Source of the DNA: Pseudomonadota bacterium
GTDB taxonomy: Bacteria; Pseudomonadota; Gammaproteobacteria; Xanthomonadales; Rhodanobacteraceae
Assembly: GCA_021793575.1 (NCBI GenBank)
Contig: JAJYSM010000002.1
Location: forward strand, 1 to 64,000
Reading direction: 5' to 3'
Length of the DNA stretch: 64,000 nucleotides
Made by a program: the position numbers and the translations under genes. Shown here in pieces: positions 12,617 to 42,830 of the stretch (the stretch's first letter is position 1; each line of letters begins with the position of its first letter). Below the pieces are notes generated by a model. That model had not been told where the DNA came from. It was given only the letters and a program-made list of their open reading frames with translations, and did no database searches.

Positions 12617-13546
12617 TCAGTGGCCGGGCGCAGCGGCCGGCTGCGTCGCGGCCGCCAGGCGCGCTGCCGTCATCGCGGCGAGGCGGGCGCGGATCAGCGG
12701 CATCGCCGCCAGCGTGGCCTTTTCGCCTTCCAGAATGGCCTGATCCCGCTGCTCGAAATCGGTCGGCCCGATGTCGCCCAGCTGCGGCCGGATCACCACG
12801 TCGGCGCGCGCCATTTCCTGCGCGCCCAGCTGCTGGCCCATGATGCTGATCGACTGCCCCACGATGTTCACCATGCCCTGCGGATTGCTGCCGTTCGGCC
12901 GCGCCGAGATGTCCACCGCGATCACGAAATCGGCGCCGAGCTGGCGCGCCGCATCCACCGGTATCGGGCTCACCACGCCGCCGTCGATGTAGTGCCTGCC
13001 GCGGATCTCGACCGGCTCGAACACGCCCGGAATGCTGCTCGAAGCGCGCACCGCCTGGCCGGTATTGCCGCGCACGAACACCGTGCGCTGGCCGCTCTCC
13101 AGCTGCGTCGCGACCGCCGCGAACGGCAGCTTCAGGCGTTCGATCGGGCGTTCGCCGACCAGCCGGTTGACGTAGTCCTGCAGCTTGCGGCCCTGCACCA
13201 GGCCGCCGGAAAACAGCCGCACGTCGCGGATCTTCGCCTCGTCCAGCGCAAACGCCTGCTGCTGCAGCTGGAACGGATCCATGCCGCTGGCGTACAGCGC
13301 GCCGACCACGCTGCCGGCGCTGGTGCCGGCAACCACGTCCGGATGGATGCCGCTGGCTTCCAGCATCTTGATCACGCCGATGTGCGCGAAGCCCTTGGCG
13401 GCGCCGCCGCCGAGCGCAAGGCCGATCTTCAGCTTGGCCGGTACCACCGGCGCGGCGACCGGTGGCGGCGTGGGCCGGCGGTCGCCGAAGCAGGCGGTGA
13501 GCGCGAGTGTGGCGAGCAGCGGCAGCAGCTGGCGGCGGATCGACAT
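12617..13546 (-). CDS. patatin-like phospholipase lipoprotein (RssA-like)
   Basis: A 309-aa patatin-family serine acyl hydrolase. The N-terminus MSIRRQLLPLLATLALTAC is a lipoprotein signal with lipobox LTAC, so the enzyme should be membrane-anchored in the periplasm. The oxyanion-hole loop GLALGGGAAKGFAHIG, the nucleophile elbow GTSAGS and the catalytic dyad aspartate in YIDGGVVSP are all present, so it should be active on acyl esters such as phospholipids. ATG 13546 was chosen over the ORF start at 13600 because it begins the signal peptide. It lies 111 bases downstream of the S9 peptidase start on the same strand and about 100 bases from fbp. Confidence 0.9.
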   Translation of the reverse strand: MSIRRQLLPLLATLALTACFGDRRPTPPPVAAPVVPAKLKIGLALGGGAAKGFAHIGVIKMLEASGIHPDVVAGTSAGSVVGALYASGMDPFQLQQQAFALDEAKIRDVRLFSGGLVQGRKLQDYVNRLVGERPIERLKLPFAAVATQLESGQRTVFVRGNTGQAVRASSSIPGVFEPVEIRGRHYIDGGVVSPIPVDAARQLGADFVIAVDISARPNGSNPQGMVNIVGQSISIMGQQLGAQEMARADVVIRPQLGDIGPTDFEQRDQAILEGEKATLAAMPLIRARLAAMTAARLAAATQPAAAPGH

Positions 13547-13646
13547 CGGTGGGGGCGCCTGGAAAGGGATGCGTGGGTGGCGAGTCTGCGCCCGCCGCAT
13601 GGCGCGGCCGGGGCGCGCTGCGGCCGCGGCGCGGCGGGTGACAGCA

Positions 13647-14681
13647 TTAGCCCAGCGCGCCGTCCGCCTGGCGGTGGTAGCGGGTGGCCAGCTCGACCTC
13701 GGCCTGCGAGCCGAGGAACACCGGCACGCGCTGGTGCAGCCCGCCCGGCTGCAGTTCCATGATGCGCTCGCGCCCGGTGGTGGCCGCGCCGCCGGCCTGC
13801 TCGATGATGAAGGCCATCGGATTGGCCTCGTACATCAGCCGCAGCTTGCCGCCCTGCGCCAGGATCTTCGCGTCCAGCGGATAAAAGAACACGCCGCCGC
13901 GGGTCACGATGCGGTGCACGTCGGCGACCATCGAGGCGACCCAGCGCATGTTGAAATCCCGGCCGCGCGGGCCGTCCTTGCCGGCCAGCAGCTCGCCGAT
14001 GTAGCGCTGCATCGGCGCCTGCCAGTGGCGCTGGTTGGACATGTTGATGGCGAACTCGCTGGCCTGCTCGGGGATGCGGATGCCGCGGCGGCTGAGCATG
14101 AAGCTGCCCACCTCGCGCTCCAGCGTGAACTCGTGGGTGCCGTGGCCGAAGGTCAGCACCAGCACGGTGGCCGGCCCGTACACCACGTAACCGGCGGCCA
14201 GCTGCTCGGTGCCCGGCTGCAGGAAGTGCTCGGCCTTCGGCTCGCTGACGTGGTCGGGGCAGCGCAGCACCGAGAAGATGGTGCCGACCGAGACGTTGAC
14301 GTCGATGTTGGAGCTGCCGTCCAGCGGGTCGAACAGCAGCAGGTGGTTGCCCTTCGGATAGCCGTCCGGAATCTGCTGCGGGTCTTCCATCTCCTCCGAG
14401 GCGCAGGCGGCGAGGTGGCCGCCCCACGCGTTCGCTTCCAGCAGGATCTCGTTGGAGATCACGTCGAGCTTCTTCTGCGCCTCGCCCTGGATGTTGATGC
14501 TGGCCGCCTCGCCGGCGCCGGCGGCCATCCCCAGCACGCCGCCCAGCGCGCCCTTGTTGGTGGCCACCGCGATGCGCTTGCAGGCGCGCGCCACCACCTC
14601 GATCAGCAGCGACAGCTCGGCGTTGATGTGGCCGGCGCGGCGTTCCTCGATCAGGAACTGGATCAGCGAGATGGGCTTCAT
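13647..14681 (-). CDS. fbp: fructose-1,6-bisphosphatase class I
   Basis: Class I fructose-1,6-bisphosphatase, the gluconeogenic enzyme that hydrolyses fructose 1,6-bisphosphate to fructose 6-phosphate in the cytosol. The metal-binding motif [15 protein letters not shown] (about residue 115) and the upstream glutamates in ASEEMED are diagnostic. GGVFFYPLD and the substrate-binding [13 protein letters not shown] region are also present. Length 344 aa is typical. The long ORF reaches 14849, but [13 protein letters not shown] at 14681 is the normal N-terminus. Confidence 0.96.
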
Positions 14682-14779
14682 GGCGGGTCCGTGGCGAGAG
14701 GATGGCGCATTGTCCCGACTCCCGCTGCAGCGCGCCAGCGGCGTAGCCTGCATGCTGCATCCCCCCCACGGAGCCAACC

Positions 14780-30595: not shown

Positions 30596-32122
30596 TCAGT
30601 GCCCGCCGGTCGCGGCGCCGGTCTTGGCGGTGAACGGCGGCCTGGCCAGCCAGATCACGAACACCAGCGCGATGAAGATCCAGCCGAGCACGCGGAACAC
30701 CTCGTCGAACGCGATCTGGAAGCCCTGCTGGGTGATCATGTTGTTGATCAGGCTGCCGCCGAGCCGGGTGTCGCCGTGGCCCAGCTGCCGCAGCGACGCC
30801 TGCGCGATCGGGTTGTAGGCGGTGATGCCTTCGGCCAGCTGCTCGTGATGCACCACCGCGCGCCGGTCCCACATCAGCGTGGTGAGCGAGGCGGCGAAGC
30901 TGCCGCCCAGCGTGCGCAGGAAGGTGGCCAGACCCGAGCCGGCGGCGATCTCGTTCTGCTGCAGGTCGGACAGCAGGATCGACAGGATCGGCATGAAGAA
31001 CAGCGCCACGCCCAGGCCCTGCAGCAGCTGCACCATGGCCACGTGATTGAAGTCGACGCCCAGATAGAAGTCCGACCGTAGGAAGCAGGTAATGCCCATC
31101 ACCACGAACGCCGCCGAGGCGACCAGCCGCAGGTCGAACCGATTGGCGTATTTGCCGACGAACACCGTCAGCAGCACCGGAATGATGCCCAGCGGCGCGG
31201 TGGCGTAGCCGGCCCAGGTGGAGGTGTAGCCGAGGTTGCGCTGCAGCCACAGCGGCACCAGCAGGCCGATCGCGAAAAACGCGGCGTAGGCCAGCACCAG
31301 CGCCAGCGTGCCGGCGCTGAAGTTGCGATGACGAAACAGCTTCAGGTTGACGATCGGGTCCTTGTCGGTGAGTTCCCAGATCAGGAACACCGCCAGCGCG
31401 ATCGCCGACACCAGCGCGGTGACCACGATGAAGGTGGAGTTGAACCAGTCCTCGTCGTTGCCCTTGTCCAGCACGATCTGCAGCGCGCCGACGCCGATGA
31501 TCAGGCTGATCAGGCCGACGTAGTCCATCTTCGGCCGCTCGGTGGTTTCCACCCGGCCCTTCATCTGGTTCGCCACCACCATGCTGGCGAAGATGCCGAT
31601 CGGCACGTTGATGAAGAAGATCCACGGCCACGAATAGTTGTCGGTGATCAGCCCGCCCAGGATCGGCCCGGCGATCGGCGCCACCACCGTCACCATCGCC
31701 AGCAGTGCCAGCGCCATGCCGCGCTTGGCCGGCGGATAGATGCCGATCAGCATGCTCTGGGTGATCGGGTACATCGGCCCGGCCACCGCACCCTGGATCG
31801 CGCGGAACACGATCAGCATGCCCATGCTCTGCGAGATGCCGCACAGGAACGAGGTCAGCGCAAACAGCAGGGTCGACCACACGAACAGCTTCACCTCGCC
31901 GAAGCGGCGCGTGAGAAAGCCGGTCAGCGGCAGCGAGATCGCCATGCTCACCGCGAACGAGGTGATCACCCAGGTGCTCTGGTTCGAGCTCACGCCGAGG
32001 TTGCCGGCGATCGTCGGCAGCGAGACGTTGGCGATCGTCGTGTCCAGCACCTGCATGAAGGTGGCCAGCGACAGGCCGATCGTGCTGAGCGCCAGGTTGG
32101 GTGGACGGAATGGTGTGGTCAT
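30596..32122 (-). CDS. emrB: DHA2-family MFS multidrug transporter
   Basis: A 508-aa inner-membrane proton antiporter of the EmrB/QacA (14-TM) family. LDTTIANVSLPTIAGNLGVSSNQSTWVITSF is motif D1 with the first loop. LTRRFGEVKLF is motif A and RAIQGAVAGPMYPITQSMLIGIYPP is motif B/C. Together with EmrA and the outer-membrane factor encoded upstream it forms a tripartite pump that expels hydrophobic toxic compounds. It is the last gene of the marR-led operon, separated from emrA by a REPIN that may tune its expression. Confidence 0.93.
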   Translation of the reverse strand: MTTPFRPPNLALSTIGLSLATFMQVLDTTIANVSLPTIAGNLGVSSNQSTWVITSFAVSMAISLPLTGFLTRRFGEVKLFVWSTLLFALTSFLCGISQSMGMLIVFRAIQGAVAGPMYPITQSMLIGIYPPAKRGMALALLAMVTVVAPIAGPILGGLITDNYSWPWIFFINVPIGIFASMVVANQMKGRVETTERPKMDYVGLISLIIGVGALQIVLDKGNDEDWFNSTFIVVTALVSAIALAVFLIWELTDKDPIVNLKLFRHRNFSAGTLALVLAYAAFFAIGLLVPLWLQRNLGYTSTWAGYATAPLGIIPVLLTVFVGKYANRFDLRLVASAAFVVMGITCFLRSDFYLGVDFNHVAMVQLLQGLGVALFFMPILSILLSDLQQNEIAAGSGLATFLRTLGGSFAASLTTLMWDRRAVVHHEQLAEGITAYNPIAQASLRQLGHGDTRLGGSLINNMITQQGFQIAFDEVFRVLGWIFIALVFVIWLARPPFTAKTGAATGGH

Positions 32123-32167
32123 CGGATCCGATCAGTGATGCAGGAGCGACGTGAGGGGGCAATTCCT

Positions 32168-32247
32168 GTGGGAGCGACTTCAGTCGCGATGCTGTTGCCT
32201 TGATGTACACCGAAGTGCAACAGCATCGCGACTGAAGTCGCTCCCGC
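32168..32247. repeat. REPIN-like inverted repeat between emrA and emrB
   Basis: The same element as at 18210-18288: GTGGGAGCGACTTCAGTCGC plus GATGCTGTTG pairs with CAACAGCATCGCGACTGAAG plus TCGCTCCCGC. The arms here are about 30 bases with one mismatch near the tip. It lies within the 152-base gap between emrA and emrB, which are otherwise an operon. Confidence 0.85.
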
Positions 32248-32274
32248 CAGCAGGGATGGCTTTGCCAACAGCAG

Positions 32275-33477
32275 TCATTTGTGGCCGCCCATGTTGGCGT
32301 GGATGATCTGCGCGATCGCCGCGTCGGCCTTCACCAGCTGCTGCTGGTAGATGTCGGTGCTGAACACCGGCTGGGTCGGCGAATGCTGCGCCAGCGTCGG
32401 GCCGTTGCGGTCGTGCAGGTTCACTTCCACGTTCAGCGACATGCCCAGCCGCAGCGGGTGGCGCTCAAGCTGCTGCGGATCGGTGAACACCACCCGCACC
32501 GGGATGCGCTGCACGATCTTGATCCAGTTGCCGGTGGCGTTCTGCGCCGGCAGCAGCGAGAACGCGCTGCCGGTGCCCACGCCCAGGCTCTCCACCTTGC
32601 CCTTGTACTGCACCGAGCTGCCGTAGACGTCGGAGTCGATCGTCACCGGCTGGCCGATGCGCATGTGGGTGAGCTGGGTTTCCTTGAAGTTGGCGTCCAC
32701 CCATACGCCGTGCAGCGGCACCACCGCCATCAGCGCGGTGCCGGGCAGCACGCGCTGGCCGACCTGCACCGTGCGTTTGGCCACATAGCCGTCCACCGGT
32801 GCCACCAGCACGGTGCGCGCGTCGTCGAGGTACGCGGCGCGCAGCCGGGCGGCGGCGGCCTGCACGTCCGGATGCGAGGCGACCACGGTGTCGTCGACCA
32901 GCACCTTGCTGGTCTGCAACTGCTGCTGCGCGGTGATCAGACCGCTTTCCGCGGTGCTCAGCGCATCGCGCGCATGCGCCAGCTCCTCGGCCGAGATCGC
33001 GCCGGAGCGTGCCAGCCCCACGCGCCGGGTGACATCGGCGCGCGCCTTGTCCACCGCCACCTTGCGGATCGCCATGTCGGCCTGCGCACCGTTGACGTTG
33101 CTGTACAGGCCGCGCACCTTGCGCACGGTATTGGCCAGGTTGGCCTTGGCCTCGGCCAGCAGCACGTCGGCGTCGCTGGGGTCGAAGCGCACCAGCACCT
33201 CACCGGCGTGCACGCGGTCGCCGTCGTCGGCGCCGATGCTGACCACGCTGCCGGCGATCTGCGGGGTGATCTGCACCACGTTGCCGTTGACGTAGGCGTC
33301 GTCGGTGCTCTCGTACCAGCGGCCGTCGAGGAAGTACCACAGCGCCCACGCGATCACGCCGAGCACGACGATCACGGCGAGCAGGCGCAGCAGCAGGCCA
33401 CGCGGGCTTTTCCTGGGAGGAGCGGCGACGGCCGTGCTGGCAGCCGTGTTGGCAGAGGAATCGGGTTGGCTGGACAT
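32275..33477 (-). CDS. emrA: HlyD/EmrA-family periplasmic adaptor
   Basis: A 400-aa membrane-fusion protein. A single N-terminal membrane anchor (GLLLRLLAVIVVLGVIAWALWYF) is followed by a lipoyl/barrel-sandwich domain split around an alpha-helical hairpin (VVQITPQIAGSVVSIGADDGDRVHAGEVLVRFDPSDA; VLVAPVDGYVAKRTVQVGQRVLPG) and a beta-barrel (VWVDANFKETQLTHMRIGQPV), all typical of EmrA. It bridges EmrB in the inner membrane and the outer-membrane factor encoded nine bases upstream. The C-terminal His-rich end (HANMGGHK) is a minor oddity. Confidence 0.93.
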   Translation of the reverse strand: MSSQPDSSANTAASTAVAAPPRKSPRGLLLRLLAVIVVLGVIAWALWYFLDGRWYESTDDAYVNGNVVQITPQIAGSVVSIGADDGDRVHAGEVLVRFDPSDADVLLAEAKANLANTVRKVRGLYSNVNGAQADMAIRKVAVDKARADVTRRVGLARSGAISAEELAHARDALSTAESGLITAQQQLQTSKVLVDDTVVASHPDVQAAAARLRAAYLDDARTVLVAPVDGYVAKRTVQVGQRVLPGTALMAVVPLHGVWVDANFKETQLTHMRIGQPVTIDSDVYGSSVQYKGKVESLGVGTGSAFSLLPAQNATGNWIKIVQRIPVRVVFTDPQQLERHPLRLGMSLNVEVNLHDRNGPTLAQHSPTQPVFSTDIYQQQLVKADAAIAQIIHANMGGHK

Positions 33478-33486
33478 GCTGCTGCC

Positions 33487-35019
33487 TCAGGAACGTGAAG
33501 TGCTGGAAGAGGGGGCGGGCGCGGCGGAAGCGGCCGCCGCCGGCGCCGCGGAAGCGGGTGGAAGCTCGTGCGGCGTGGGCCGATAGCCACCGCCGAGCGC
33601 CTGGATCAGCTGCACCGAGCGGATCACCTGCTGCGCCTGCAGCGCGGCCATGCCGCGCTCGGCGGCGAGCAGCTGCCGGCGCACGCCGAGCGCTTCCAGA
33701 TAGCTGCCGATGCCGGCCCGGTAGCGCTGCTGCGCCAGCTGCCAGGCGCCGCGGGCGGCGTCCTGCGCACGCTGCTGGGCGGCCATCTGCGCGCGCAGCG
33801 ACTGCAGCGCGGAGAGCTCGTCGGCAACCTGGTTGACCGCGCCGACCAGCGCCTGGTTGTACTGTGCTACGGCAAGGTCGTATTGCGCATCGCGGCCGCG
33901 CAGGTTGGCGCGCAGGCGGCCGCCGTCGAAGATCGGCAGGCTGATCGACGGGCCCAGTTGATAGAACCGCGCGGGCAGCTCGAACAGGTTGTGCCCGCCC
34001 AGCGTGATCAGGCCGGCCATCGCGCCGATGCTGACGTTGGGCAGGAATTCGGTCTTCGCCGCCTGGATGTCCTTGCTCGCCGCCTCGACCCGCCAGCGCG
34101 CGGCGACCAGGTCGGCGCGATGGCCGAGCAGGCCTACCGGCAGGTTGTCCGGCACCGCCAGTTCGGCGGGCCGCAGCAGCTGCGGACGGGCGATGTCGCG
34201 GCCACGATCCGGGCCCTTGCCCAGCAGCACCGCCAGCGCTGAGCGGGCGGCGTCGATCGCGCGCGCGGCCAGCGCCACCTGTTGCTCGGCGCTGGCCACT
34301 TCGGCGTCGCCCTGGCGCAGCTGGATCTGGTTGTCGATGCCGGCGGCGACGCGCTGGCGGGTCAGCTCGCGCGCCTTGCTGGCGCGCCCCAGTTCGGCCC
34401 GGCTCAGATCCTGCTGGGTGAAGGCGTAGCCGAGCTGGGCATAAGCGGCGGCGACATTGCCGGACAGCTCGATGCGCGCGGCGCGCGTCTCGATCTCGGC
34501 GGCGCGCGCGGTGCCCAGCGCGGCCTGCCACGCGGCGCGCCTGCCGCCCCACAGATCCAGCCCCCACTTGAAGCTGACATCGCCGTATTTGGCCACCCGG
34601 AAATGACCGCCGCCGACCTTGGCCGGTAGCACCGTGGTGGGCAGTCGGGCGCCGGCCACGCTGGCGCCGGCATTCACGCTGGGGCCGCGCGCAGCGTCGG
34701 CGGCGCCCACCGCGGCCTGCGCCGCGCGCGCCCGCGCATCGGCCACGGCCAGCCCGGGGTTGTCGCGCAGCGCCTCGGCCATCAGCGCGTCGAGCTGGGG
34801 ATCGCCCAGCCCGCTCCACCAGTCGGCCTGCGGCCAGGCGGCAGGCGACAGCGTCACGCCGCTGAGGCTGCGCGCGGTCTGCAGCGACGACGGCGCGATC
34901 GCCTGGCCGTCCGGATGCAGGCCGCCGCTGCTGACGCAGCCGGCGAGGGCCAGGGTGATGGCGGCGACCGCCACGAAAGGCACGCGCATGGAAGGGAGTC
35001 CGGGCAAAGAGAAAGTCAT
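33487..35019 (-). CDS. outer-membrane efflux lipoprotein, NodT/OprM type
   Basis: A 510-aa TolC-like outer-membrane factor of the NodT family. The signal MRVPFVAVAAITLALAGC has lipobox LAGC. Two long coiled outer-membrane-efflux repeats follow, with family motifs WWSGLGDPQLDALMAEAL, WGLDLWGGRRA and GPSISLPIFDGGRL. It forms the exit duct for EmrAB. The upstream marR gene ends in ATGA with the ATG at 35019, so this start is preferred over the internal ATG at 34989. A Pro/Ala/Ser-rich tail of ~30 residues closes the protein. Confidence 0.92.
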   Translation of the reverse strand: MTFSLPGLPSMRVPFVAVAAITLALAGCVSSGGLHPDGQAIAPSSLQTARSLSGVTLSPAAWPQADWWSGLGDPQLDALMAEALRDNPGLAVADARARAAQAAVGAADAARGPSVNAGASVAGARLPTTVLPAKVGGGHFRVAKYGDVSFKWGLDLWGGRRAAWQAALGTARAAEIETRAARIELSGNVAAAYAQLGYAFTQQDLSRAELGRASKARELTRQRVAAGIDNQIQLRQGDAEVASAEQQVALAARAIDAARSALAVLLGKGPDRGRDIARPQLLRPAELAVPDNLPVGLLGHRADLVAARWRVEAASKDIQAAKTEFLPNVSIGAMAGLITLGGHNLFELPARFYQLGPSISLPIFDGGRLRANLRGRDAQYDLAVAQYNQALVGAVNQVADELSALQSLRAQMAAQQRAQDAARGAWQLAQQRYRAGIGSYLEALGVRRQLLAAERGMAALQAQQVIRSVQLIQALGGGYRPTPHELPPASAAPAAAASAAPAPSSSTSRS

Positions 35020-35492
35020 GATTTGTCGCGCAGCGCGTGCAGCACGCGCTCCAGGTAATCGTGCAACTGCGCCCGCTCGGTTTCGCTCAGCGAGCGCTGC
35101 GCGGCGGTCATCACGCGGTCGCCGCAGACGAACGCGGTGTTCTGCCACATGGTGCTGCCGGCCTCGGTCAGCTCGATGCGCAGGGTGCGGCGATCCTGCT
35201 CGTGCGGGCTGCGGCGCAGATAGCCCTTGCGCTCCAGCTGATCCAGCTGGCGCGTCATGGCGCCGCCGTCCAGCTCGACCGCGCGCGCCAGCTCGGTGGC
35301 CGACAGCGGCCCCAGCTGCTGCGCCTTCTTCAGGATCAGGTACTGGGTGAAGCTCAGATCCAATCCCTGACGGGCGAATTCCGCCTCCAGCGCGTTGACC
35401 AGCTCGGAGCGCACCATGGTCAGCAGCATGCCCAGGCTGGGCGGAACCACCGGCGTGCTGACGGGAGTGGCGGGAGGCAGGTTCGGCTTCAT
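35016..35492 (-). CDS. MarR-family transcriptional regulator of the efflux operon
   Basis: A 158-aa MarR repressor. The winged HTH spans SFTQYLILKKAQQLGPLSATELARAVELDGGAMTRQLDQLERKGYLRRSPHEQDRRTLRIELT, with the DRR wing motif. It heads the operon marR-OMF-emrA-emrB and very probably represses it until a toxic compound binds. ATG 35492 was chosen because it lies eight bases after the -10 box TAGAAT, which suggests a leaderless or near-leaderless message. The ORF track start at 35621 lies beyond the promoter. Its stop overlaps the next start by ATGA. Confidence 0.93.
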   Translation of the reverse strand: MKPNLPPATPVSTPVVPPSLGMLLTMVRSELVNALEAEFARQGLDLSFTQYLILKKAQQLGPLSATELARAVELDGGAMTRQLDQLERKGYLRRSPHEQDRRTLRIELTEAGSTMWQNTAFVCGDRVMTAAQRSLSETERAQLHDYLERVLHALRDKS

Positions 35493-35500
35493 GCCGCGGC

Positions 35501-35540
35501 ATTCTATTGCCGGGAATATATTTGTCAAGGCAAATATATG
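35501..35540 (-). promoter_or_regulatory. marR-emrAB promoter with overlapping palindromic operator
   Basis: On the minus strand TTGACA (35528-35523) and TAGAAT (35506-35501) lie 16 bases apart. The perfect inverted repeat ATATATTTG-N6-CAAATATAT (35516-35539) covers the -35 box, the expected position for repression by the adjacent MarR protein. The A of ATG 35492 is only nine bases after the -10 hexamer. Confidence 0.75.
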
Positions 35541-35659
35541 CCAGTTTATGTTTGTTTCAGCAAGATGATGCCGCGCCCTCCGGTCGCATGAAGCTCGGTC
35601 GTGAATTTTCAGAGGCTGCACGCAGCCATGCGCTGGAATGCGCTATGGTGCACCTTACA

Positions 35660-35669
35660 CACTTAAGTG
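35660..35669. promoter_or_regulatory. palindrome in front of the sulfur operon
   Basis: CACTTAAGTG is a perfect 10-base palindrome ending four bases before the ArsR-type start. ArsR-family repressors bind dyads at their own promoter, so this is the best operator candidate in the ~180 bases between marR and arsR. Confidence 0.45.
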
Positions 35670-35673
35670 AAAT

Positions 35674-36570
35674 ATGGAATCAGCGATGCGCAAAGCCGCC
35701 GCCATGCATGCCCGCGCCCACGACACGGCGCGGCTGCTGCGCGCGCTGGGCAACGCGCGGCGGCTGCTGATCCTGTGCCGGCTGCACACCCGCGGCGAAG
35801 CCAGTGCCGGCCAGCTGGCCGAGGAGCTGGACCTGGGGCTATCGGCGCTGTCGCAGCATCTCAGCCGGATGCTCGCCGAGGGCCTGCTCAGCCAGCGCCG
35901 GCAGGGCCGCCAGCTGTTCTACCGCATCAGCGAATCCGCCTCGGGACAACTGCCGCGGTTGCTCGCCAGCATCTGCAGCGACGTTCCGCTGCCCACCCCC
36001 GCAACAGGAGATGACCCGATGAAACCGATCACCATGCTGGCCGCCGTGCTGGGCCTCAGCGTTGCCGCCAGTGCGGGCGTGCGCGCTGCGGATGGCTTCT
36101 GGCAGACCCCGACGATCCAGGGCGCCGGCAAGATGCACGCCCTGCCGCAGGCGGCCTACCAGCCCGACGCCAAGGCCACCTACAAGGTGGTGTTCGGCCT
36201 CACCGGCGCGGCCGCCAAGCCCGACCAGGTCAGCCCGGGGCTGGAACGGGTGGCGCGTGCGGTGAACCTGTACGTGCACGCCGGCGTGCCGCTGAAGCAC
36301 CTGCACTTCGTGGCGATCGCCTACGGCGCGGCCACCGCGATCGCGCTCGACGATGCCCACTACCAGAAGCAGTACGGCGTGCCCAACCCCAACCTGCCGG
36401 TGATCGCGCAGCTGCGCAAGGCCGGCGTCGACGTCGCCGTGTGCGGGCAGGCGGTGGCCGAGCACGAGTACAAGTACGACTGGATCGACAAGCGCGTGAC
36501 ACTGGCGCTGTCGGGGCTCACCACCATCATCGAGCTGCAGCAGAAGGGCTATGCCCTGATGCCGCTCTGA
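35674..36570 (+). CDS. ArsR-family (SqrR/BigR-like) regulator running in frame into a DsrE-family protein
   Basis: One 298-residue frame holds two proteins. Residues 1-~110 are an ArsR winged HTH (RLLRALGNARRLLILCRLH; GLSALSQHLSRMLAEGLL; GRQLFYRIS) with only two cysteines, Cys35 and Cys101. Their spacing of 66 equals that of the persulfide-sensing pairs in SqrR (41/107) and BigR (42/108). Residues 116-298 are a signal peptide plus a DsrE domain. The separate ribosome site for the second part, and the ATGA overlap that appears if one C of the run 35996-36000 is removed, argue that these are normally two genes. The regulator probably controls the whole downstream operon. ATG 35686, with GGA upstream, is an alternative start. 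Confidence 0.8.
   Translation: MESAMRKAAAMHARAHDTARLLRALGNARRLLILCRLHTRGEASAGQLAEELDLGLSALSQHLSRMLAEGLLSQRRQGRQLFYRISESASGQLPRLLASICSDVPLPTPATGDDPMKPITMLAAVLGLSVAASAGVRAADGFWQTPTIQGAGKMHALPQAAYQPDAKATYKVVFGLTGAAAKPDQVSPGLERVARAVNLYVHAGVPLKHLHFVAIAYGAATAIALDDAHYQKQYGVPNPNLPVIAQLRKAGVDVAVCGQAVAEHEYKYDWIDKRVTLALSGLTTIIELQQKGYALMPL
36019..36570 (+). CDS. periplasmic DsrE-family protein (internal start)
   Basis: Translation from ATG 36019, with ACAGGAG eight bases upstream, gives a 183-aa exported protein. The signal peptide is MKPITMLAAVLGLSVAASAGVRA, and the mature part is a DsrE/DsrF-like fold (YKVVFGLTG; ARAVNLYVHAGVP; LHFVAIAYGAAT; LRKAGVDVAVCGQAVAEH) with a single conserved-looking cysteine in VCGQ. 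DsrE proteins carry sulfane sulfur on a cysteine, so it may bind or relay persulfide in the periplasm for the cytochromes and DsbG-like protein encoded downstream. This start, rather than the ArsR fusion, is the one likely to give an exported protein. Confidence 0.75.
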   Translation: MKPITMLAAVLGLSVAASAGVRAADGFWQTPTIQGAGKMHALPQAAYQPDAKATYKVVFGLTGAAAKPDQVSPGLERVARAVNLYVHAGVPLKHLHFVAIAYGAATAIALDDAHYQKQYGVPNPNLPVIAQLRKAGVDVAVCGQAVAEHEYKYDWIDKRVTLALSGLTTIIELQQKGYALMPL

Positions 36571-36596
36571 TCCACCCTGGGCGCGCGGAGAGCAGC

Positions 36597-37541
36597 ATGC
36601 ACAAGGCACGAAGTCGCCGGCGCGGGCTGGCGCTGGCGCTGCTGACGGCGGCGATCGGCAGCACTGCAGCGGCGGCGCCGCCCGACTACCTGCCGCCGTG
36701 GAATCCGCCGCCCGCCGGCGGGGTGCAGTTCAGCGCACCGCCGGTGGACGCCATCGCCGACCTGCACGGCGACATCGTCGATCCGCAGCTGACGGTATTT
36801 TTCGCCGGCAACCAGTTCATGGTGGTGCACGACCTGCTGGCGGCGTTCCGGCAGGCCTATCCGCAGTACCGGCGCATCTTCGTCGAGACGCTGCCGCCGG
36901 GCATCCTGGCCAGGCAGATCGAGACCGGCTCGCTGGTGATGGGCAACCTGCGCATCGCGCTGAAGCCGGACGTGTTTACCGCCGGCAAGGCGTCGATCGC
37001 CGCACAGCAGAAACAACACGGCTGGTTTGCCGACACCTGCGACTACGCGCGCAACCCGCTCGCGATCCTGGTCGCGCAGGGCAACCCGAAAGGCATCCAC
37101 GGCCTGGCCGATCTCGGCCGCCCGGACGTGCGCGTGAGCATGCCGAACCCGGCGTGGGAGGGCATCGCGCGGCAGATCGAGGCCAGCTACCGCAAGGCCG
37201 GCGGCCAGGCGCTGGACACCGCGATCATGCACACCAAGCTGGCCGACGGCAGCACCTTTCTCACCCGCATCCATCATCGGCAGACGCCGCTGCGCGTGCT
37301 GCAGGGGGATTCCGACGCCGGCGTGGTGTGGTCGACCGAGGCGTATTTCCAGCAGCAGATCCTGCATCATCCGGTGCAGACGGTGGCGATACCGGCCGCG
37401 CAGAACAGCATGGCCACCTATACCGTCGCGCGCATGAAGGATGCGCCGCACGCGCAGGCGGCGAAGGATTTTCTCGCCTTCATGCAGACCCCGGCGGCGC
37501 AGGCGATCTACCGCAAGTACGACTTCCTGCCACCGCACTGA
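36597..37541 (+). CDS. periplasmic solute-binding protein, orphan
   Basis: A 314-aa exported protein (signal MHKARSRRRGLALALLTAAIGSTAAAA) with a type 2 periplasmic-binding fold resembling the ModA/sulfate-binding group: LTVFFAGNQFMVVHDLLAAFRQAYP, the hinge region NPLAILVAQGNPKGIHGLADLGRPDVRVSMPNP, and AGVVWSTEAYFQQQ. No ABC permease or ATPase gene is nearby, so it is probably not a transport component. In this operon it might bind an oxyanion such as thiosulfate or sulfite and deliver or sense it, but that is inference. ATG 36597 begins the signal peptide and lies 26 bases after the dsrE stop. Confidence 0.75.
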   Translation: MHKARSRRRGLALALLTAAIGSTAAAAPPDYLPPWNPPPAGGVQFSAPPVDAIADLHGDIVDPQLTVFFAGNQFMVVHDLLAAFRQAYPQYRRIFVETLPPGILARQIETGSLVMGNLRIALKPDVFTAGKASIAAQQKQHGWFADTCDYARNPLAILVAQGNPKGIHGLADLGRPDVRVSMPNPAWEGIARQIEASYRKAGGQALDTAIMHTKLADGSTFLTRIHHRQTPLRVLQGDSDAGVVWSTEAYFQQQILHHPVQTVAIPAAQNSMATYTVARMKDAPHAQAAKDFLAFMQTPAAQAIYRKYDFLPPH

Positions 37542-37551
37542 GAGGCACGGC

Positions 37552-38223
37552 ATGACCTTCACCCATCGCAAAGCGCGCATCCCGGGGCCACTGCTGGCGC
37601 TGCTGCTGGCTGCGCCGGGCGCCATGGCCGCAGACGCTGCCGTCATCGCGCAGCAGGGCAATGGCCGCGGCGCGCCAGCGTGCCAGACCTGCCACGGCGC
37701 GGATGGCGCGGGTCAGGCGGCGGCCGGGTTTCCGCGGCTGGCTGGCCTGAATGCGGCCTACCTGCGCAAGCAGCTGGACGATCTGGCCAGCGGTGCCCGC
37801 GGCAGCGCGGTGATGCAGCCGATTGCCACCGCGCTGAGCGCAGCGGAGCGCGCGGCGATGGCCGGCTACTACAGCGGGCTGCCGATCCCCGCCGCGCTGG
37901 CCCGGCCCGGCACGCCGATGCCGGCGGCCGACAGCGTGGGCGCGCAGCTGGCCCTGCGCGGCCGCTGGCCGCGGCAGGTGCCCGCCTGCGTGCAGTGCCA
38001 CGGCCCCGACGGCGTCGGCGTGGGCGCCCACTTCCCGCCGCTGGCGGGGCAGTCGGCCACCTATATCGCGGCGCAGCTGAAGGCATGGCAGCAGGGCACG
38101 CGTCACAACGATCCGCTGCAGCTGATGCAGCACATCAGCCACGCGCTGAGCGAGCAGGACATCGCCGCGGTCGCCGGCTGGTTTGCGGCGCAGCCGCTGC
38201 CGGCAGCGGGAGCAACGCGATGA
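37552..38223 (+). CDS. tsdB: diheme class I cytochrome c, TsdB-like
   Basis: A 223-aa exported cytochrome with two c-type heme motifs, CQTCH (about residue 48) and CVQCH (about 147), in two cytochrome c4-like domains (FPRLAGLNAAYLRKQLDDLASGAR; FPPLAGQSATYIAAQLKAWQQG). Such diheme proteins encoded directly before TsdA are the electron acceptors of thiosulfate dehydrogenase. The signal peptide ends near APGAMAADAA. It starts 10 bases after the binding-protein gene and overlaps the next gene by ATGA, so TsdB and TsdA should be made in fixed ratio. Confidence 0.85.
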   Translation: MTFTHRKARIPGPLLALLLAAPGAMAADAAVIAQQGNGRGAPACQTCHGADGAGQAAAGFPRLAGLNAAYLRKQLDDLASGARGSAVMQPIATALSAAERAAMAGYYSGLPIPAALARPGTPMPAADSVGAQLALRGRWPRQVPACVQCHGPDGVGVGAHFPPLAGQSATYIAAQLKAWQQGTRHNDPLQLMQHISHALSEQDIAAVAGWFAAQPLPAAGATR

Positions 38224-39170
38224 AGGCGCATCGGCTCGGCGCGCTGGCGCTGCTGGCACTGGCAGCCTGTTCCTCGCGGGTGCCGCCGCCGCCATCCGCG
38301 GCACCCGCGGCCAGCGCGCCTGCGGCGGTCGCGGCGCACCCTCGTGCTGTCGTCGACAGCACGGCAAAAGCGTTCACGCCGCCGCCCGAATCGGCGATAC
38401 CCGCCGGCCCGTTCGGCGACGCGGTGCGCCAGGGCCGCGCCATCTTCGTGCACACGCACGAGTACGCGAAGGCGTATGTCGGCAACGGCCTGCGCTGCAG
38501 CAACTGCCATCTCGACGCCGGCCGCCTCGCGCACTCGGCGCCGCTGTGGGGCGCGTATGTGGCGTATCCGCAGTACCGCCGCAAGAACGGTCATGTGAAC
38601 AGCCTGGGCGAACGCATCCAGGGCTGCTTCCGCTTCAGCATGAACGGCAAGGCGCCGCCGCTGGGCAGCCCCGAAATGGTGGCGCTGGAAAGCTATGCCT
38701 ACTGGCTGGCGACCGGCGCGCCGGTCGGTGCCCGGCTGGCCGGCGCGGGCTATCCGAAGCAGGGTTTCAAGCCGCCGCAGCCGCCGGACTATGCGCGCGG
38801 CCAGGCGGTATTCGTGCGCGACTGCGCGCTGTGCCACGGTGCCGACGGCCAGGGCCAGCAGGTGGCCGGCCGCTATGTGTTCCCGCCGCTGTGGGGGCCG
38901 CATTCCTTCAACTGGGGCGCCGGCATGGCGCAGCTGGACAACGCCGCCGCCTTCATCAAGGCCAACATGCCGCTGAGCCGCGGCGGCACCTTGAGCGACC
39001 AGGACGCGTGGGACGTGGCGATGTACATGGACGGCCACGAGCGCCCGCAGGATCCGCGCTACAAGGGAAATCTCGAACAAACACGCAGGCAGTACCACGA
39101 CTCGTCGCTGTCGCTGTACGGCACCGTGGTCGATGGCCGCCTGCTCGGCGCGCGGCCCGGTCACCGATGA
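38220..39170 (+). CDS. tsdA: thiosulfate dehydrogenase-like diheme cytochrome c lipoprotein, TsdA
   Basis: A 316-aa diheme cytochrome of the thiosulfate dehydrogenase family, which couples two thiosulfates to tetrathionate (and can work in reverse). GNGLRCSNCHLDAGR binds heme 1, and RDCALCHGADGQGQ binds heme 2. ERIQGCFRFSMNGKAPPLGSP holds the cysteine that in TsdA is an unusual axial ligand of the active-site heme. MALESYAYW-like VALESYAYWLATGAPVG is another signature. The start MKAHRLGALALLALAAC has lipobox LAAC, so it is probably an outer-membrane lipoprotein, and a Pro/Ala linker of ~30 residues follows. The start overlaps tsdB. Confidence 0.85.
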   Translation: MKAHRLGALALLALAACSSRVPPPPSAAPAASAPAAVAAHPRAVVDSTAKAFTPPPESAIPAGPFGDAVRQGRAIFVHTHEYAKAYVGNGLRCSNCHLDAGRLAHSAPLWGAYVAYPQYRRKNGHVNSLGERIQGCFRFSMNGKAPPLGSPEMVALESYAYWLATGAPVGARLAGAGYPKQGFKPPQPPDYARGQAVFVRDCALCHGADGQGQQVAGRYVFPPLWGPHSFNWGAGMAQLDNAAAFIKANMPLSRGGTLSDQDAWDVAMYMDGHERPQDPRYKGNLEQTRRQYHDSSLSLYGTVVDGRLLGARPGHR

Positions 39171-39189
39171 CGCCGCTGCCTGCCAATGA

Positions 39190-40026
39190 ATGCGCAGCCC
39201 ACCGCAACTCCCACTTACGCTGGATACCCGCGCCTTGAACAGCAGCAGCCTGAACCGCCCCGCCGCAACCGCCCGCCGCGCCATGCCGTGGATCGCGTCT
39301 CTGCTCGCGGCCCTGGCCGCCTGCGCGCAGGCGCAGGACGTGCCAGCGCCGATCCGCGCGCTGGCCGGCCAGGGCGTCACGATCAAGGGTCCGCTGACGG
39401 CACCGCCGGGCTTCAAGGGCTATGTCGGCGACTACCGCGGGCGGTCGCTGCCGATCTACCTGCTGCCCGACGGCCAGCACGTGGTGATCGGCACCCTGCT
39501 CGACGCCAGCGGCAACGACCTCACCCGCGCGCCGCTACAGGCCGCCGCCACGCCGTCGCTGGGCGCGGCGGCCTGGGCGCAGCTGGCCAAGGCCAGCTGG
39601 ATCGCCGAAGGCGCCACCCACCCGAAGCGCATCGTGTATGTGTTCACCGATACCGAGTGCCCGTATTGCCACAAGCTGTGGGCGGCCACCCAGCCGCTGC
39701 TGGCCGGCGGCGACGTGCAGGTGCGCCACGTGATGGTGGCGGTGATCGCGCCGCAGAGCCGCAGCCGCGCGGCGGCGATACTCGATGCGGCCAATCCGCA
39801 GGCGGCGCTGCAGCAGCACGAGCGCAGCTTCGGCCACAGCACGCTGGCACCGCTGCCGAACGTGCCCGCGGCCACCGCCCGCCGCATCGACGCCAACAAC
39901 GCGCTGATGGAAAAGCTGGGCATCGAGGGCACGCCGGCAACGATCTACAAAGACGCGGCTGGCCAGATTCGCATGCTGCAGGGCATGCTGCCCGAGGACC
40001 GCTTGAAGGCGATCTTCGGTGACTGA
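39190..40026 (+). CDS. DsbG/DsbC-like periplasmic thiol-disulfide protein
   Basis: A 278-aa thioredoxin-fold protein of the DsbC/DsbG type. An N-terminal dimerisation-like domain (VPAPIRALAGQGVTIKGPLTAPPGFKGYVGDYRGRSLPIYLLPDGQHVVIG) precedes the thioredoxin domain with active site DTECPYCHKLW and cis-proline loop GIEGTPATIY. DsbG reduces sulfenylated cysteines; here it may handle protein persulfides or keep the cysteine of DsrE or TsdA reduced. The signal peptide MPWIASLLAALAACAQAQ lies downstream of ATG 39190. A TTG at 39235, with GGAT nine bases before it, or ATG 39283 could be the real start. Confidence 0.82.
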   Translation: MRSPPQLPLTLDTRALNSSSLNRPAATARRAMPWIASLLAALAACAQAQDVPAPIRALAGQGVTIKGPLTAPPGFKGYVGDYRGRSLPIYLLPDGQHVVIGTLLDASGNDLTRAPLQAAATPSLGAAAWAQLAKASWIAEGATHPKRIVYVFTDTECPYCHKLWAATQPLLAGGDVQVRHVMVAVIAPQSRSRAAAILDAANPQAALQQHERSFGHSTLAPLPNVPAATARRIDANNALMEKLGIEGTPATIYKDAAGQIRMLQGMLPEDRLKAIFGD

Positions 40027-40915
40027 GCGAGCCGTCCTGCAGCCCACCGCGCCGCGCCCCGCCGTGCAGGCGTTCTTCCACGCGCCCAGCCACACCTTCA
40101 GCTACGTGGTGTGGGACCCGGCCACCCTGCAAGCGGCGGTGCTCGACAGCGTGCTCGACTACGACGCGGCGGCGGGACGCACCGGCCACGCGGCGGCGGA
40201 TGCGCTGGTCGCCTTCGTGCGGGCGCAGGGGCTGGGCGTGGATTGGGTGATCGACACCCACGTGCACGCCGACCATCTGTCGGCGGCGCCGTACGTGCAG
40301 GCGCAGCTGGGCGGCCGGCTGGGCATCGGCGAACACATCCGCACGGTGCAGGACACCTTCGGCCAGCTGTTCAACGCGGGCGGCGCCTTCCGCCGCGACG
40401 GCAGCCAGTTCGACCACCTGTTCGGGGACGGCGAGCGCTACGCGGTCGGTTCCATCGAGGCCGTCGCACTGCACACGCCCGGCCACACGCCCGCGTGCAT
40501 GACGCATGTGATCGGCGACGCCGCGTTCGTGGGCGACACGCTGTTCATGCCCGACTACGGCACTGCGCGCTGCGACTTTCCCGGCGGCGACGCGCGCACG
40601 CTGTACCGCTCGATCCAGAAAATCTTCGCGCTGCCGCCGGCCACGCGGGTGTTCCTGTGCCACGACTACAAGGCCGCAGGACGCGACACGTTCGTCGGCG
40701 AGACCGCGGTGGGCGCCGAGCGCGCCGGCAACATCCACGTGCATGACGGCATCGGCGAGGACGACTTCGTGCGCATGCGCCGCGCGCGCGACGCCACCCT
40801 GGCGATGCCGGCGCTGCTGCTGCCGGCAGTGCAGGTGAACATGCGCGCCGGGCAGCTGCCGCCGGCCGAGGACAACGGCGTGCGCTACCTGAAGATTCCT
40901 CTCGATGCGCTGTGA
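40019..40915 (+). CDS. persulfide dioxygenase-like metallo-beta-lactamase-fold protein (ETHE1/Blh type)
   Basis: A 298-aa metallo-beta-lactamase-fold protein. THVHADHLSAAPYVQAQLGG is the ETHE1/Blh form of the HxHxDH motif. HTPGHTPACMTHVIGDAAFVGDTLFMPDYGTARCDFPGG supplies the second His and Asp ligands and the Blh-specific sequence, and FLCHDYKAAGRD the last His. Enzymes of this type oxidise glutathione persulfide to sulfite with O2 at a single iron. It has no signal peptide, so it works in the cytosol on sulfur brought in or made there. The GTG start at 40019 overlaps the dsbG-like stop by eight bases. It closes the operon. Confidence 0.87.
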   Translation: MTERAVLQPTAPRPAVQAFFHAPSHTFSYVVWDPATLQAAVLDSVLDYDAAAGRTGHAAADALVAFVRAQGLGVDWVIDTHVHADHLSAAPYVQAQLGGRLGIGEHIRTVQDTFGQLFNAGGAFRRDGSQFDHLFGDGERYAVGSIEAVALHTPGHTPACMTHVIGDAAFVGDTLFMPDYGTARCDFPGGDARTLYRSIQKIFALPPATRVFLCHDYKAAGRDTFVGETAVGAERAGNIHVHDGIGEDDFVRMRRARDATLAMPALLLPAVQVNMRAGQLPPAEDNGVRYLKIPLDAL

Positions 40916-41073
40916 CCTGCGCTGCGCATGCCGGCCCTTCCACGCGACCGATCGCTGCCCGTCGCCACGATGCGCCGCGCTAGCTAGTCGGGACGTGAAA
41001 CTAGGAAATGGACATTTTTTTGTCTTAGAATGCGTTTCGAGGCCAGCTAGCGGCCGTTTTGTGGGATCTGGCC

Positions 41074-42291
41074 ATGCTTCACTCGTTTGCGCTCAAGAAC
41101 TTCCTTTCGTTCAAGGAACGAACCGAGGTGTCCTTTGCCCTGACTCAGAAGGCGAGTTCGCACGGCTGGGATGCGTCATCGCCAAGCGGCCAGCGTCTTG
41201 CCACGGCCTTGGCAGTGATCGGTGCCAATGGTGCCGGCAAGACGTCGCTCATCAAGCCGGTGGCGTTTCTGAGCTGGTTCATCAAGCACTCATTTCTGCA
41301 GAGCATCCCGAACGCACCGATGCCCATCAAGCCGCATTTCTCCGCACCACACGAGCCGATCGAGTTCGAGATTGAAGCCGACGACCTGGACGGCACGCTC
41401 TGGCGCTACGAACTGAAGGCGACGCCCGAACGTGTGCTGCACGAGGCCGTTTACAAGCGCCCGAACAAAAAGCGGGCGAAGTACTCCTATGTGTTCGAGC
41501 GGGACTGGGACGAAGCCTCGAAGGAATACATCATCAAGCAGGATGGCTTCGGCCTAAATCCTGCCGAGGCGAAGAAGGTTCGCCCAAATGCCTCGTTGAT
41601 TTCGACAGCAGCACAGTACGGCGTGGAGGCCGCACAACGCTTGGTCGGTGCCAACGTCGCCAGCAACATCATGCAGGTGGGTCGTGTTGATCCAAATCTC
41701 GGTTTCGTGAACGCGTCCATCTTCTTCCATGAAAATGCCGCTCTGAAGGCGCAGATGGAAACGTTGTTGCACGACCTGGATTTCGGCCTGTCCGGCGTGG
41801 AGATACGGAAACTGGACATTGCCATGCCACCGGAAATGAAGTTTCCAGAGGGCACAAAATTACCCGCGCAATATCAGGTTGTCGGCGTCCACACCTTGAA
41901 GAATGGTTCGCGGCACGAGCTTCAAATGATGGAGGAGTCCAGCGGCACGCGGACGGCGTTCACCCAACTCTGGTATCTGTTGAGTGTGCTGGCCAGTGGC
42001 GGCATCGCCGTGATCGACGAGTTGGAAAGCGACATGCATCCGCACATGATCGAACCCTTGCTCGATCTTTTCGCCAGCCCGCATACCAACCCGCACAACG
42101 CCCAGATCATCTTTACCAGCCATTCGATCGAAGTGATGGGCTTGCTTGGCAAATCCCAGGTCTTTCTTGTCGAGAAGAAGAACTGCGAGAGTGAGGCTTG
42201 GCGGCTGGACACGATGGACGGTGTGCGTGTCCAAGACAATCTGTATGCGAAATACATGAGCGGTGCCTATGGAGCCGTACCGCAACTATGA
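41074..42291 (+). CDS. AAA-family ATPase, RloA-like
   Basis: A 405-aa ATPase of the OLD/RecF-like ABC class. It starts MLHSFALKNFLSFKERTEVSF, the usual first strand, with Walker A in VIGANGAGKTSLIKPVAF, a signature-like MMEESSGTRTAFTQLWYLL, Walker B in GGIAVIDELESDMHP and switch histidine in IIFTSHSIEVMG. Paired with the downstream small protein it matches RloA-RloB (also described as AbiL-type) abortive-infection systems. The gene has a lower G+C content and different codon use from its neighbours, consistent with horizontal transfer. ATG 41074 is used; a TTG at 41059 is in frame and no strong ribosome site is visible. Confidence 0.85.
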   Translation: MLHSFALKNFLSFKERTEVSFALTQKASSHGWDASSPSGQRLATALAVIGANGAGKTSLIKPVAFLSWFIKHSFLQSIPNAPMPIKPHFSAPHEPIEFEIEADDLDGTLWRYELKATPERVLHEAVYKRPNKKRAKYSYVFERDWDEASKEYIIKQDGFGLNPAEAKKVRPNASLISTAAQYGVEAAQRLVGANVASNIMQVGRVDPNLGFVNASIFFHENAALKAQMETLLHDLDFGLSGVEIRKLDIAMPPEMKFPEGTKLPAQYQVVGVHTLKNGSRHELQMMEESSGTRTAFTQLWYLLSVLASGGIAVIDELESDMHPHMIEPLLDLFASPHTNPHNAQIIFTSHSIEVMGLLGKSQVFLVEKKNCESEAWRLDTMDGVRVQDNLYAKYMSGAYGAVPQL

Positions 42292-42830
42292 CGCCGTCAC
42301 CATCCAGCAAGACGCGCGCCGTCAAGGAAACCTTGCTGATCGTCTGTGAGGGCGATGCCGAGATGGCATTCGTCCGCTTTGTGAAACGCACGTATGCCGA
42401 CGCACTGGGGCGTGCCGTGCAGGCACACAATGCCAAAGGCAAAGGGGGCAAGCACGTCCTGGACACTGGCTTGAGCCGTGCGAAGAACAACCGCGCCTAC
42501 GACAAGGTCGTTCTGCTGCTGGATACCGATACCGACTGGAACGATGAACTGCGTGCCAGGGCACGAAAAGCCCGTGTCGGCAAACACCCGGTCAGCGTGA
42601 TCGAAGCATGCCCCTGCCTGGAAGCGTGGCTATTGCACGTCCTCGGCATCGAAACCGAAGGCGATAGTCAGCACATGAAGCAGACGTTCAAGGCCAACAC
42701 AGGTGTCCAGGCCCATGAACCTGCCTGGATGGAGAAGCGCCTCAGTCGCGAGACATTGGATGAAGCGAGAACGCGAGTATCACAACTGGCCGACTTGATG
42801 AATCACATGGGAATAGCGAAGAAGCCCTGA
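42288..42830 (+). CDS. RloB-like protein, partner of the AAA ATPase
   Basis: A 180-aa RloB-family protein. The Toprim-like pieces are LLIVCEGDAEMAFVRFVKR (with the conserved Glu) and VVLLLDTDTDWNDEL (with the DxD pair); the C-terminal CPCLEAWLLHVLGI is the RloB signature. Toprim-fold proteins of this kind are candidate nucleases of phage-defence systems, with the ATPase as sensor or regulator. ATG 42288 overlaps the ATPase stop (ATGA), so the two are made together. The ORF track start at 42198 is inside the upstream gene. Confidence 0.85.
   Translation: MTPSPSSKTRAVKETLLIVCEGDAEMAFVRFVKRTYADALGRAVQAHNAKGKGGKHVLDTGLSRAKNNRAYDKVVLLLDTDTDWNDELRARARKARVGKHPVSVIEACPCLEAWLLHVLGIETEGDSQHMKQTFKANTGVQAHEPAWMEKRLSRETLDEARTRVSQLADLMNHMGIAKKP

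Follow-up and report, generated by a model that had tools for sequence, protein, structure and literature searches.

A single-frame ArsR-DsrE fusion at the head of a predicted TsdBA-type thiosulfate/tetrathionate operon in Rhodanobacter

How might a bacterium connect sulfur compounds lying beyond its membrane with gene control inside the cell? The question is raised by a compact operon (positions 35674-40915, + strand) in a 64,000-nucleotide stretch of a Rhodanobacter genome (GenBank assembly GCA_021793575.1, contig JAJYSM010000002.1, positions 1 to 64,000; hereafter the window), whose first gene joins an ArsR-type regulator to a DsrE domain. The sensing of extracellular sulfur by sulfur-oxidation repressors has been described as poorly understood (PMC11582611). 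A preliminary description of this locus, made from the sequence alone, had counted seven genes and read them as one unit, possibly novel, leading from periplasmic thiosulfate to cytosolic sulfite. The location, common direction and close packing of the genes are borne out by the coordinates of the open reading frames and all seven functions are there, but the genes number six, since ArsR and DsrE form one frame. This in-frame fusion, which the preliminary description missed, is the most unusual feature of the operon.

One frame for a regulator and a DsrE domain

The fusion runs without interruption (Table 1), and the codons leading from Cys101 of the ArsR part to Met116 of the DsrE part (ATC TGC AGC GAC GTT CCG CTG CCC ACC CCC GCA ACA GGA GAT GAC CCG ATG) are free of stops; a ribosome starting at the ArsR codon must therefore continue into DsrE. 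Searching all 234 Rhodanobacteraceae genomes, we found DsrE of this kind (E below 1e-30) in 78, of which 10 have ArsR and DsrE fused in a single open frame. Four of them are Rhodanobacter, namely the window genome, FW021_bin.58 (93% identical), Rhodanobacter glycinis S10 and the metagenome-assembled genome (MAG) FW106_bin.6; the others are four genomes of the Dyella ginsengisoli/lutea genus, one of a further genus (G214) and Oleiagrimonas sp. C23AA (~42% identity), so that the fusion spans four genera. A search with a profile of the fusion recovered no further examples in a sample of 398 other genomes of the phylum. An assembly error or the chance loss of a stop codon is ruled out, since ten genomes, each assembled separately, keep the frame open at identities as low as ~42%, and a chance run-together of two reading frames is unlikely given that the internal spacing is conserved and that two homologues have lost the internal start yet stay fused. 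On the DsrE tree the fused proteins group together and require just one change of state (support 63/99), in keeping with a single origin but no proof of one. In all fused pairs compared, dN (nonsynonymous divergence) of the ArsR part is well below dS (synonymous divergence; e.g., 0.12 vs 1.16 and 0.26 vs 1.05), and because of this we regard that part as held by purifying selection and no relic.

The regulator domain passes the ArsR profile NF033788 (65.3 bits, cut-off 55) and its best match in the PDB is BigR (3pqj). In the fusion alignment, which took in 8 of the 10 proteins, Cys35 (35776-35778) and Cys101 (35974-35976) are invariant (8/8) and sit in the second and last helices, at places equivalent to the cysteine pair with which SqrR and SoxR sense sulfane sulfur and which is required for sensing (PMC10451225). 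A persulfide-sensor-type ArsR, as proposed in the preliminary description, is thus upheld in the sense of a SqrR/BigR type with both cysteines present. The nearest unfused relatives of the domain in our scan, mostly from Parvibaculum, stand divergently beside persulfide dioxygenase genes in 9/9 loci, and this neighbourhood supports a sulfur role for this branch of ArsR proteins. The DsrE domain is recognised by PF02635 (43 bits, cut-off 22.7) and has no relatives in the PDB by sequence; in the model of the window protein it shows a clear DsrE fold (predicted local distance difference test, pLDDT, ~97; Foldseek matches 1l1s and 2pd2). Its Cys257 (36442-36444) is invariant in the same 8/8 fusions, and the cysteine of the VC[GA]Q motif is kept across the DsrE alignment. 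The Oleiagrimonas fusion was modelled with both domains mostly above pLDDT 90 and a disordered linker, one half being nearest in Foldseek to SqrR (6o8o), BigR and YgaV and the other to DsrE-family folds.

A second possible start lies within the frame. Eight of the ten fusions hold a signal-peptide-like stretch together with an internal AGGAG placed 8 nt ahead of an ATG, and two have lost both. The Gly codon used inside this internal Shine-Dalgarno sequence, GGA, accounts for only 4 of the 169 Gly codons (2.4%) in six window genes. The ArsR start codon has no clear Shine-Dalgarno sequence; at or close to this codon lies the end of an AT-rich palindrome. The conserved internal GGAG site, set beside an ArsR start of this sort, suggests that the fusion is weakly translated and the exported DsrE better translated. 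The Kyte-Doolittle maximum over 17 residues is 1.6-1.9 in the eight proteins with the stretch, most of which also show a good signal-peptide cleavage context (VRA-AD, ALA-AD, AMA-DE). It is 0.75 in Oleiagrimonas, whose fusion has neither signal peptide nor internal start and whose frame is still open; in FW106_bin.6 the internal ATG is gone and the hydrophobic core is broken by an Asp. Both retain the fused DsrE and its cysteine after these losses, which suggests a use for this domain in the regulator itself. FW106_bin.6 also holds a separate, standalone cluster of DsrE, a solute-binding protein (SBP), TsdB and TsdA, and its fusion is for that reason free to act solely as a regulator. From their sequences, the fusions of these two genomes are plain two-domain ArsR-DsrE proteins and probably dedicated, cytosolic regulators.

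A plasmid of Sphingomonas aliaeris carries ArsR and DsrE as consecutive separate genes, in the same frame and with the stop codon intact, adjoining dioxygenase, YeeE-like, sulfurtransferase and TauE genes; this arrangement is a possible precursor of the fusion. ArsR-DsrE fusions are undescribed in the open-access literature that we searched, which leaves out most subscription journals, and to our knowledge no joining of the two domains in one frame, with a second start inside it, has been described.

Table 1. Coordinates of the fusion, its parts and the genes behind it (positions in the window)
Feature	Position	Strand	Remarks
Putative operator CACTTAAGTGAAAT, holding the perfect 10-bp palindrome CACTTAAGTG	35660..35673	+	From sequence; abuts the start codon of the fusion
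ArsR-DsrE fusion, 298 codons, uninterrupted	35674..36570	+	Same fusion in nine other genomes of the family
ArsR/SqrR/BigR-type winged-helix domain, residues 1-102	35674..35979	+	Fold confirmed in the predicted structure of the Oleiagrimonas homologue
Internal Shine-Dalgarno AGGAG	36006..36010	+	GGAG ends 8 nt ahead of the internal ATG; identical spacing in 8/8 signal-peptide-bearing fusions
DsrE reading unit from the internal ATG, putative separate exported product	36019..36570	+	Hydrophobic signal-peptide-like stretch (residues 116-139) and DsrE domain
Exported solute-binding protein, SBP_bac_11	36597..37541	+	Distant from sulfate/thiosulfate-binding proteins
TsdB, di-heme cytochrome	37552..38223	+	Closest in the PDB to the TsdB half of TsdBA 5lo9, 145 bits vs 108 for cytochrome c4
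TsdA, predicted thiosulfate dehydrogenase/tetrathionate reductase	38220..39170	+	5lo9 290 bits; 4wqc 190 bits; PF21342
DsbG thiol:disulfide interchange protein, CPYC	39190..40026	+	Start uncertain; NF008657 276 bits, cut-off 124; PDB 5g1l, 1v57
Persulfide dioxygenase, PDO2/Blh dioxygenase-domain type, without DUF442	40019..40915	+	9g8t, 4efz and 4ysk matched full-length

A widespread core with changing company

Behind the fusion come, in this order, SBP_bac_11, a di-heme cytochrome c (CytB, here TsdB), a SoxA/TsdA-type di-heme cytochrome, DsbG and a persulfide-dioxygenase-type metallo-beta-lactamase, all assigned by Pfam, NCBIfam and PDB searches, which uphold the families first proposed. The genes are separated by 26 nt (DsrE stop at 36570, SBP from 36597), 10 nt (SBP stop at 37541, TsdB from 37552) and ~19 nt (TsdA stop at 39170 to the uncertain DsbG start), or overlap, by 4 nt in the ATGA common to TsdB and TsdA (38220/38223) and by 8 nt between DsbG and the dioxygenase (40019-40026). 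TsdB and TsdA each fit their own half of 5lo9 better than any other solved structure; TsdA keeps both CxxCH heme motifs (CSNCH and CALCH) and the position of the distal Cys heme ligand, ERIQGCF aligning with QRIGDCF of 4wqc. The enzyme first described as an ETHE1/Blh-type dioxygenase does have the dioxygenase domain and lacks the N-terminal sulfurtransferase domain of Blh: it covers only positions 138-423 of the Blh profile NF040641 (367 bits vs a cut-off of 625), and the fused DUF442 was not found. Among its full-length matches is 4ysk, which we take to be Pseudomonas PDO2. No permease gene accompanies the SBP in the operon. The absence of soxB and soxY, pointed out earlier for the window, extends to the whole genome, in which neither gave a match above cut-off. 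The reading as a sulfur module is supported by the TsdA hemes and Cys ligand, the TsdBA match, the SqrR/BigR-type regulator, the PDO2/Blh-type dioxygenase and the recurrence of the core across genera.

That core, DsrE-SBP-TsdB-TsdA, occurs in more than 10 genera, on Acetobacter plasmids among other places; most of the loci that we examined in Rhodanobacter and Dyella have it, as do several other proteobacteria, acetic acid bacteria included. Seen in dozens of loci, the arrangement is far beyond chance, and the operon core belongs to a kind of module already known. To this core DsbG and the dioxygenase are accessory, present in some loci and absent from others, and many Rhodanobacter loci have Rhd442 and TauE downstream, with the dioxygenase present or not. 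As a conserved novelty, the exact seven-gene unit is ruled out: the order recurs in one other genome only, FW021_bin.58, which has all seven functions and adds Rhd442 and TauE. The continuous route from periplasmic thiosulfate to cytosolic sulfite, served by all seven functions as one conserved unit, is an improbable reading of the locus. Its support is the full set in the window and in FW021_bin.58, but these are two near relatives, the genome has neither soxB nor soxY, and the window operon has no identified sulfur importer and neither of the two genes, for the sulfurtransferase Rhd442 and the sulfite exporter TauE, that lie directly downstream in its closest relative (locus L088, positions 13390-14700). 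Their place in the window, directly 3' of the dioxygenase, is taken by an AAA ATPase/RloB pair (41059-42830; PADLOC AbiLi 239 bits, AbiLii 40 bits), and these defence-like genes seem to have displaced the end of the sulfur operon. No Rhd442 turned up at any other place in the window genome, in a search with no positive control there.

The company kept by the fusion differs from that of unfused DsrE. DsbG lies downstream of 10/10 fusions, often with a membrane thioredoxin-like gene, and of 2/63 standalone DsrE loci (Fisher 1e-10, a value overstated because the fused loci are related). TsdBA was not found beside three of the ten (R. glycinis, Oleiagrimonas and FW106_bin.6, whose contig ends 1.4 kb downstream), so the fusion goes more closely with the thiol-repair gene than with the cytochromes. 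In R. glycinis S10 the fusion is kept, the SBP frame is truncated, TsdB and TsdA are absent, and the next genes are those for a membrane thioredoxin-like protein, DsbG, Rhd442 and TauE.

Several other neighbourhoods were seen. Directly upstream of the window operon, on the - strand (30596-35621), are genes for a divergent MarR regulator, an outer-membrane factor, an HlyD-type protein and MFS efflux. Rhodanobacter thiooxydans, among the three searched congeners with soxB, carries DsrE-TsdB-TsdA without SBP a few kb from soxY and soxB, and in Candidatus Kuenenia MAGs (anammox) a DsrE relative (~37%) is followed directly by a TsdA-like gene. Acetobacter estunensis, A. sicerae and Komagataeibacter xylinus share an identical DsrE, and in Acetobacter ascendens the core cluster lies on a mobilizable plasmid and runs on into genes for a cbb3-type oxidase, a sign that the electrons are used in respiration; together this suggests a thiosulfate-respiration cassette that has spread recently. 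On plasmid pAJ2b_E of Pantoea agglomerans the neighbours of a related exported DsrE are blh, tauE, two YeeE/YedE-type genes, a FAD oxidoreductase gene, dsbD and dsbG, possibly forming a plant sulfur-compound tolerance cassette, and this DsrE is also present on four other onion-isolate plasmids (the neighbourhood was read on pAJ2b_E only).

What the fusion may do

We consider it somewhat probable, from the sequence evidence, that a TsdBA-based thiosulfate/tetrathionate module is controlled here by an ArsR-DsrE repressor that responds to sulfane sulfur and regulates its own gene. The first start codon, with no clear Shine-Dalgarno sequence, would yield a small amount of ArsR-DsrE, which would bind the palindrome at its own start and repress the operon, and the internal AGGAG-ATG would yield a larger amount of free DsrE for export. 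In the periplasm TsdA would convert thiosulfate to tetrathionate, with TsdB as the electron acceptor. Archaeal DsrE3A (Metallosphaera) takes a thiosulfonate from tetrathionate onto its cysteine and then passes it on (PMC4175335); the DsrE cysteine may take up a sulfane or thiosulfonate group in a similar way, and we propose tetrathionate as the source because TsdA makes it. DsbG would resolve mixed disulfides and the cytosolic dioxygenase would oxidise incoming persulfide to sulfite. At higher sulfane-sulfur levels Cys35 and Cys101 could be loaded, either by the fused DsrE domain or by the sulfane sulfur itself, and a sulfur bridge formed there would end repression; that the sulfur load reaches the ArsR pair and so lifts repression is what we infer.

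Several points weigh against this model. The ArsR part misses the curated BigR equivalog cut-off (57.9 vs 155 bits), for which reason we class the protein as SqrR/BigR-like and do not file it as BigR, and in the model of the window fusion this domain is of low confidence. The putative operator, although backed by related AT-rich palindromes (TTTCA...TGAAA type) at the same place by the start codon in the fused loci, is poorly defined: neither the window nor the genome as a whole holds a match to an idealised 18-bp form, even with 3 mismatches allowed, which is why no regulon is called. The hydrophobic stretch is weak as a transmembrane segment, with the hydropathy values given above, and may simply be cleaved. 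As the fused loci are one group on the DsrE tree, both the conserved internal start and the association with DsbG may reflect shared ancestry. The failure to identify a sulfur importer in the operon, and the lack of Rhd442 and TauE in the window, count here too.

Why should the two domains share a gene at all? Under the repressor model one gene might give two proteins by internal initiation, an ArsR-DsrE sensor spanning the inner membrane and relaying a periplasmic sulfane-sulfur signal to its own operator, and a free exported DsrE acting as sulfur carrier and competing sink, some lineages having since turned to a purely cytosolic sensor. This is a speculative extension that we hold tentatively and consider rather unlikely. 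About equally doubtful is a plainer account in which the fusion is an expression convenience: signal peptidase would cut ArsR-DsrE, ArsR would stay at the membrane and sense by its own Cys pair, and DsrE would be only an exported sulfur carrier with no part in sensing. The good cleavage context in most of the eight signal-peptide-bearing proteins agrees with it, as does the fact that a standalone ArsR and a standalone exported DsrE are the common state, the S. aliaeris genes being adjacent with a stop between them; however, Oleiagrimonas and FW106_bin.6 keep the fused DsrE and its cysteine after losing the signal peptide and the internal start.

The purpose of the operon is a separate matter, and here an alternative that is compatible with the repressor model, and that we rate as a real possibility if short of probable, is that it serves mainly for detoxifying reactive sulfur and repairing thiols rather than for gaining energy. 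TsdBA would then remove thiosulfate or tetrathionate, DsbG would repair periplasmic disulfides and the dioxygenase would clear persulfide. The fusion's constant association with DsbG and looser one with TsdA fits such a role, and so does a genome in which soxB and soxY were not found; a reactive-sulfur role is also supported by the related exported DsrE of the onion-associated Pantoea plasmids, in the company of blh, tauE, yeeE-like genes, dsbD and dsbG. Yet TsdB and TsdA are electron-transfer proteins, and the Acetobacter plasmid relatives, in joining the cluster to a cbb3-type oxidase, suit a respiratory use of electrons from thiosulfate.

Comparison with known systems

A repressor fused to a sulfur carrier with an export-like signal provides a one-gene system for studying how outside sulfur is sensed, and it could let the cell link sulfur beyond the membrane to gene control within a single protein. 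In Hyphomicrobium, signalling to SoxR requires SoxT1B, a membrane protein in its own right (PMC11582611). Adjacent genes, a dual-product fusion and a fusion without signal peptide would also make up a natural series for the origin of a one-component sulfur sensor. With SqrR, BigR and SoxR the window ArsR shares the winged helix, two cysteines at equivalent places and, as predicted targets, sulfur-oxidation genes, but the known members are single-domain proteins of ~95-124 aa and the fusion adds a C-terminal DsrE, behind a signal-peptide-like stretch in 8/10. The possible layout recalls ToxR and CadC, with an N-terminal cytoplasmic winged helix, one hydrophobic segment and a C-terminal periplasmic domain; those proteins belong to another DNA-binding family, however, and membrane insertion of the fusion is only putative, the segment being missing or degraded in two homologues.

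The remaining proteins also have known counterparts. The window DsrE has the fold, the active cysteine and the plausible tetrathionate substrate of DsrE3A from Metallosphaera cuprina (PMC4175335), although the latter is a partner of TusA and the window protein is exported or fused to a repressor; the window protein falls in another DsrE subfamily, and no protein close to it in sequence has a solved structure. The dioxygenase resembles Blh and PDO2 in its full dioxygenase domain and differs from Blh in having no fused DUF442 sulfurtransferase. TsdB and TsdA match the respective halves of the fused TsdBA enzyme of Marichromatium purpuratum (5LO9), whereas in the window they are separate genes, overlapping in an ATGA and linked to DsrE and the SBP.

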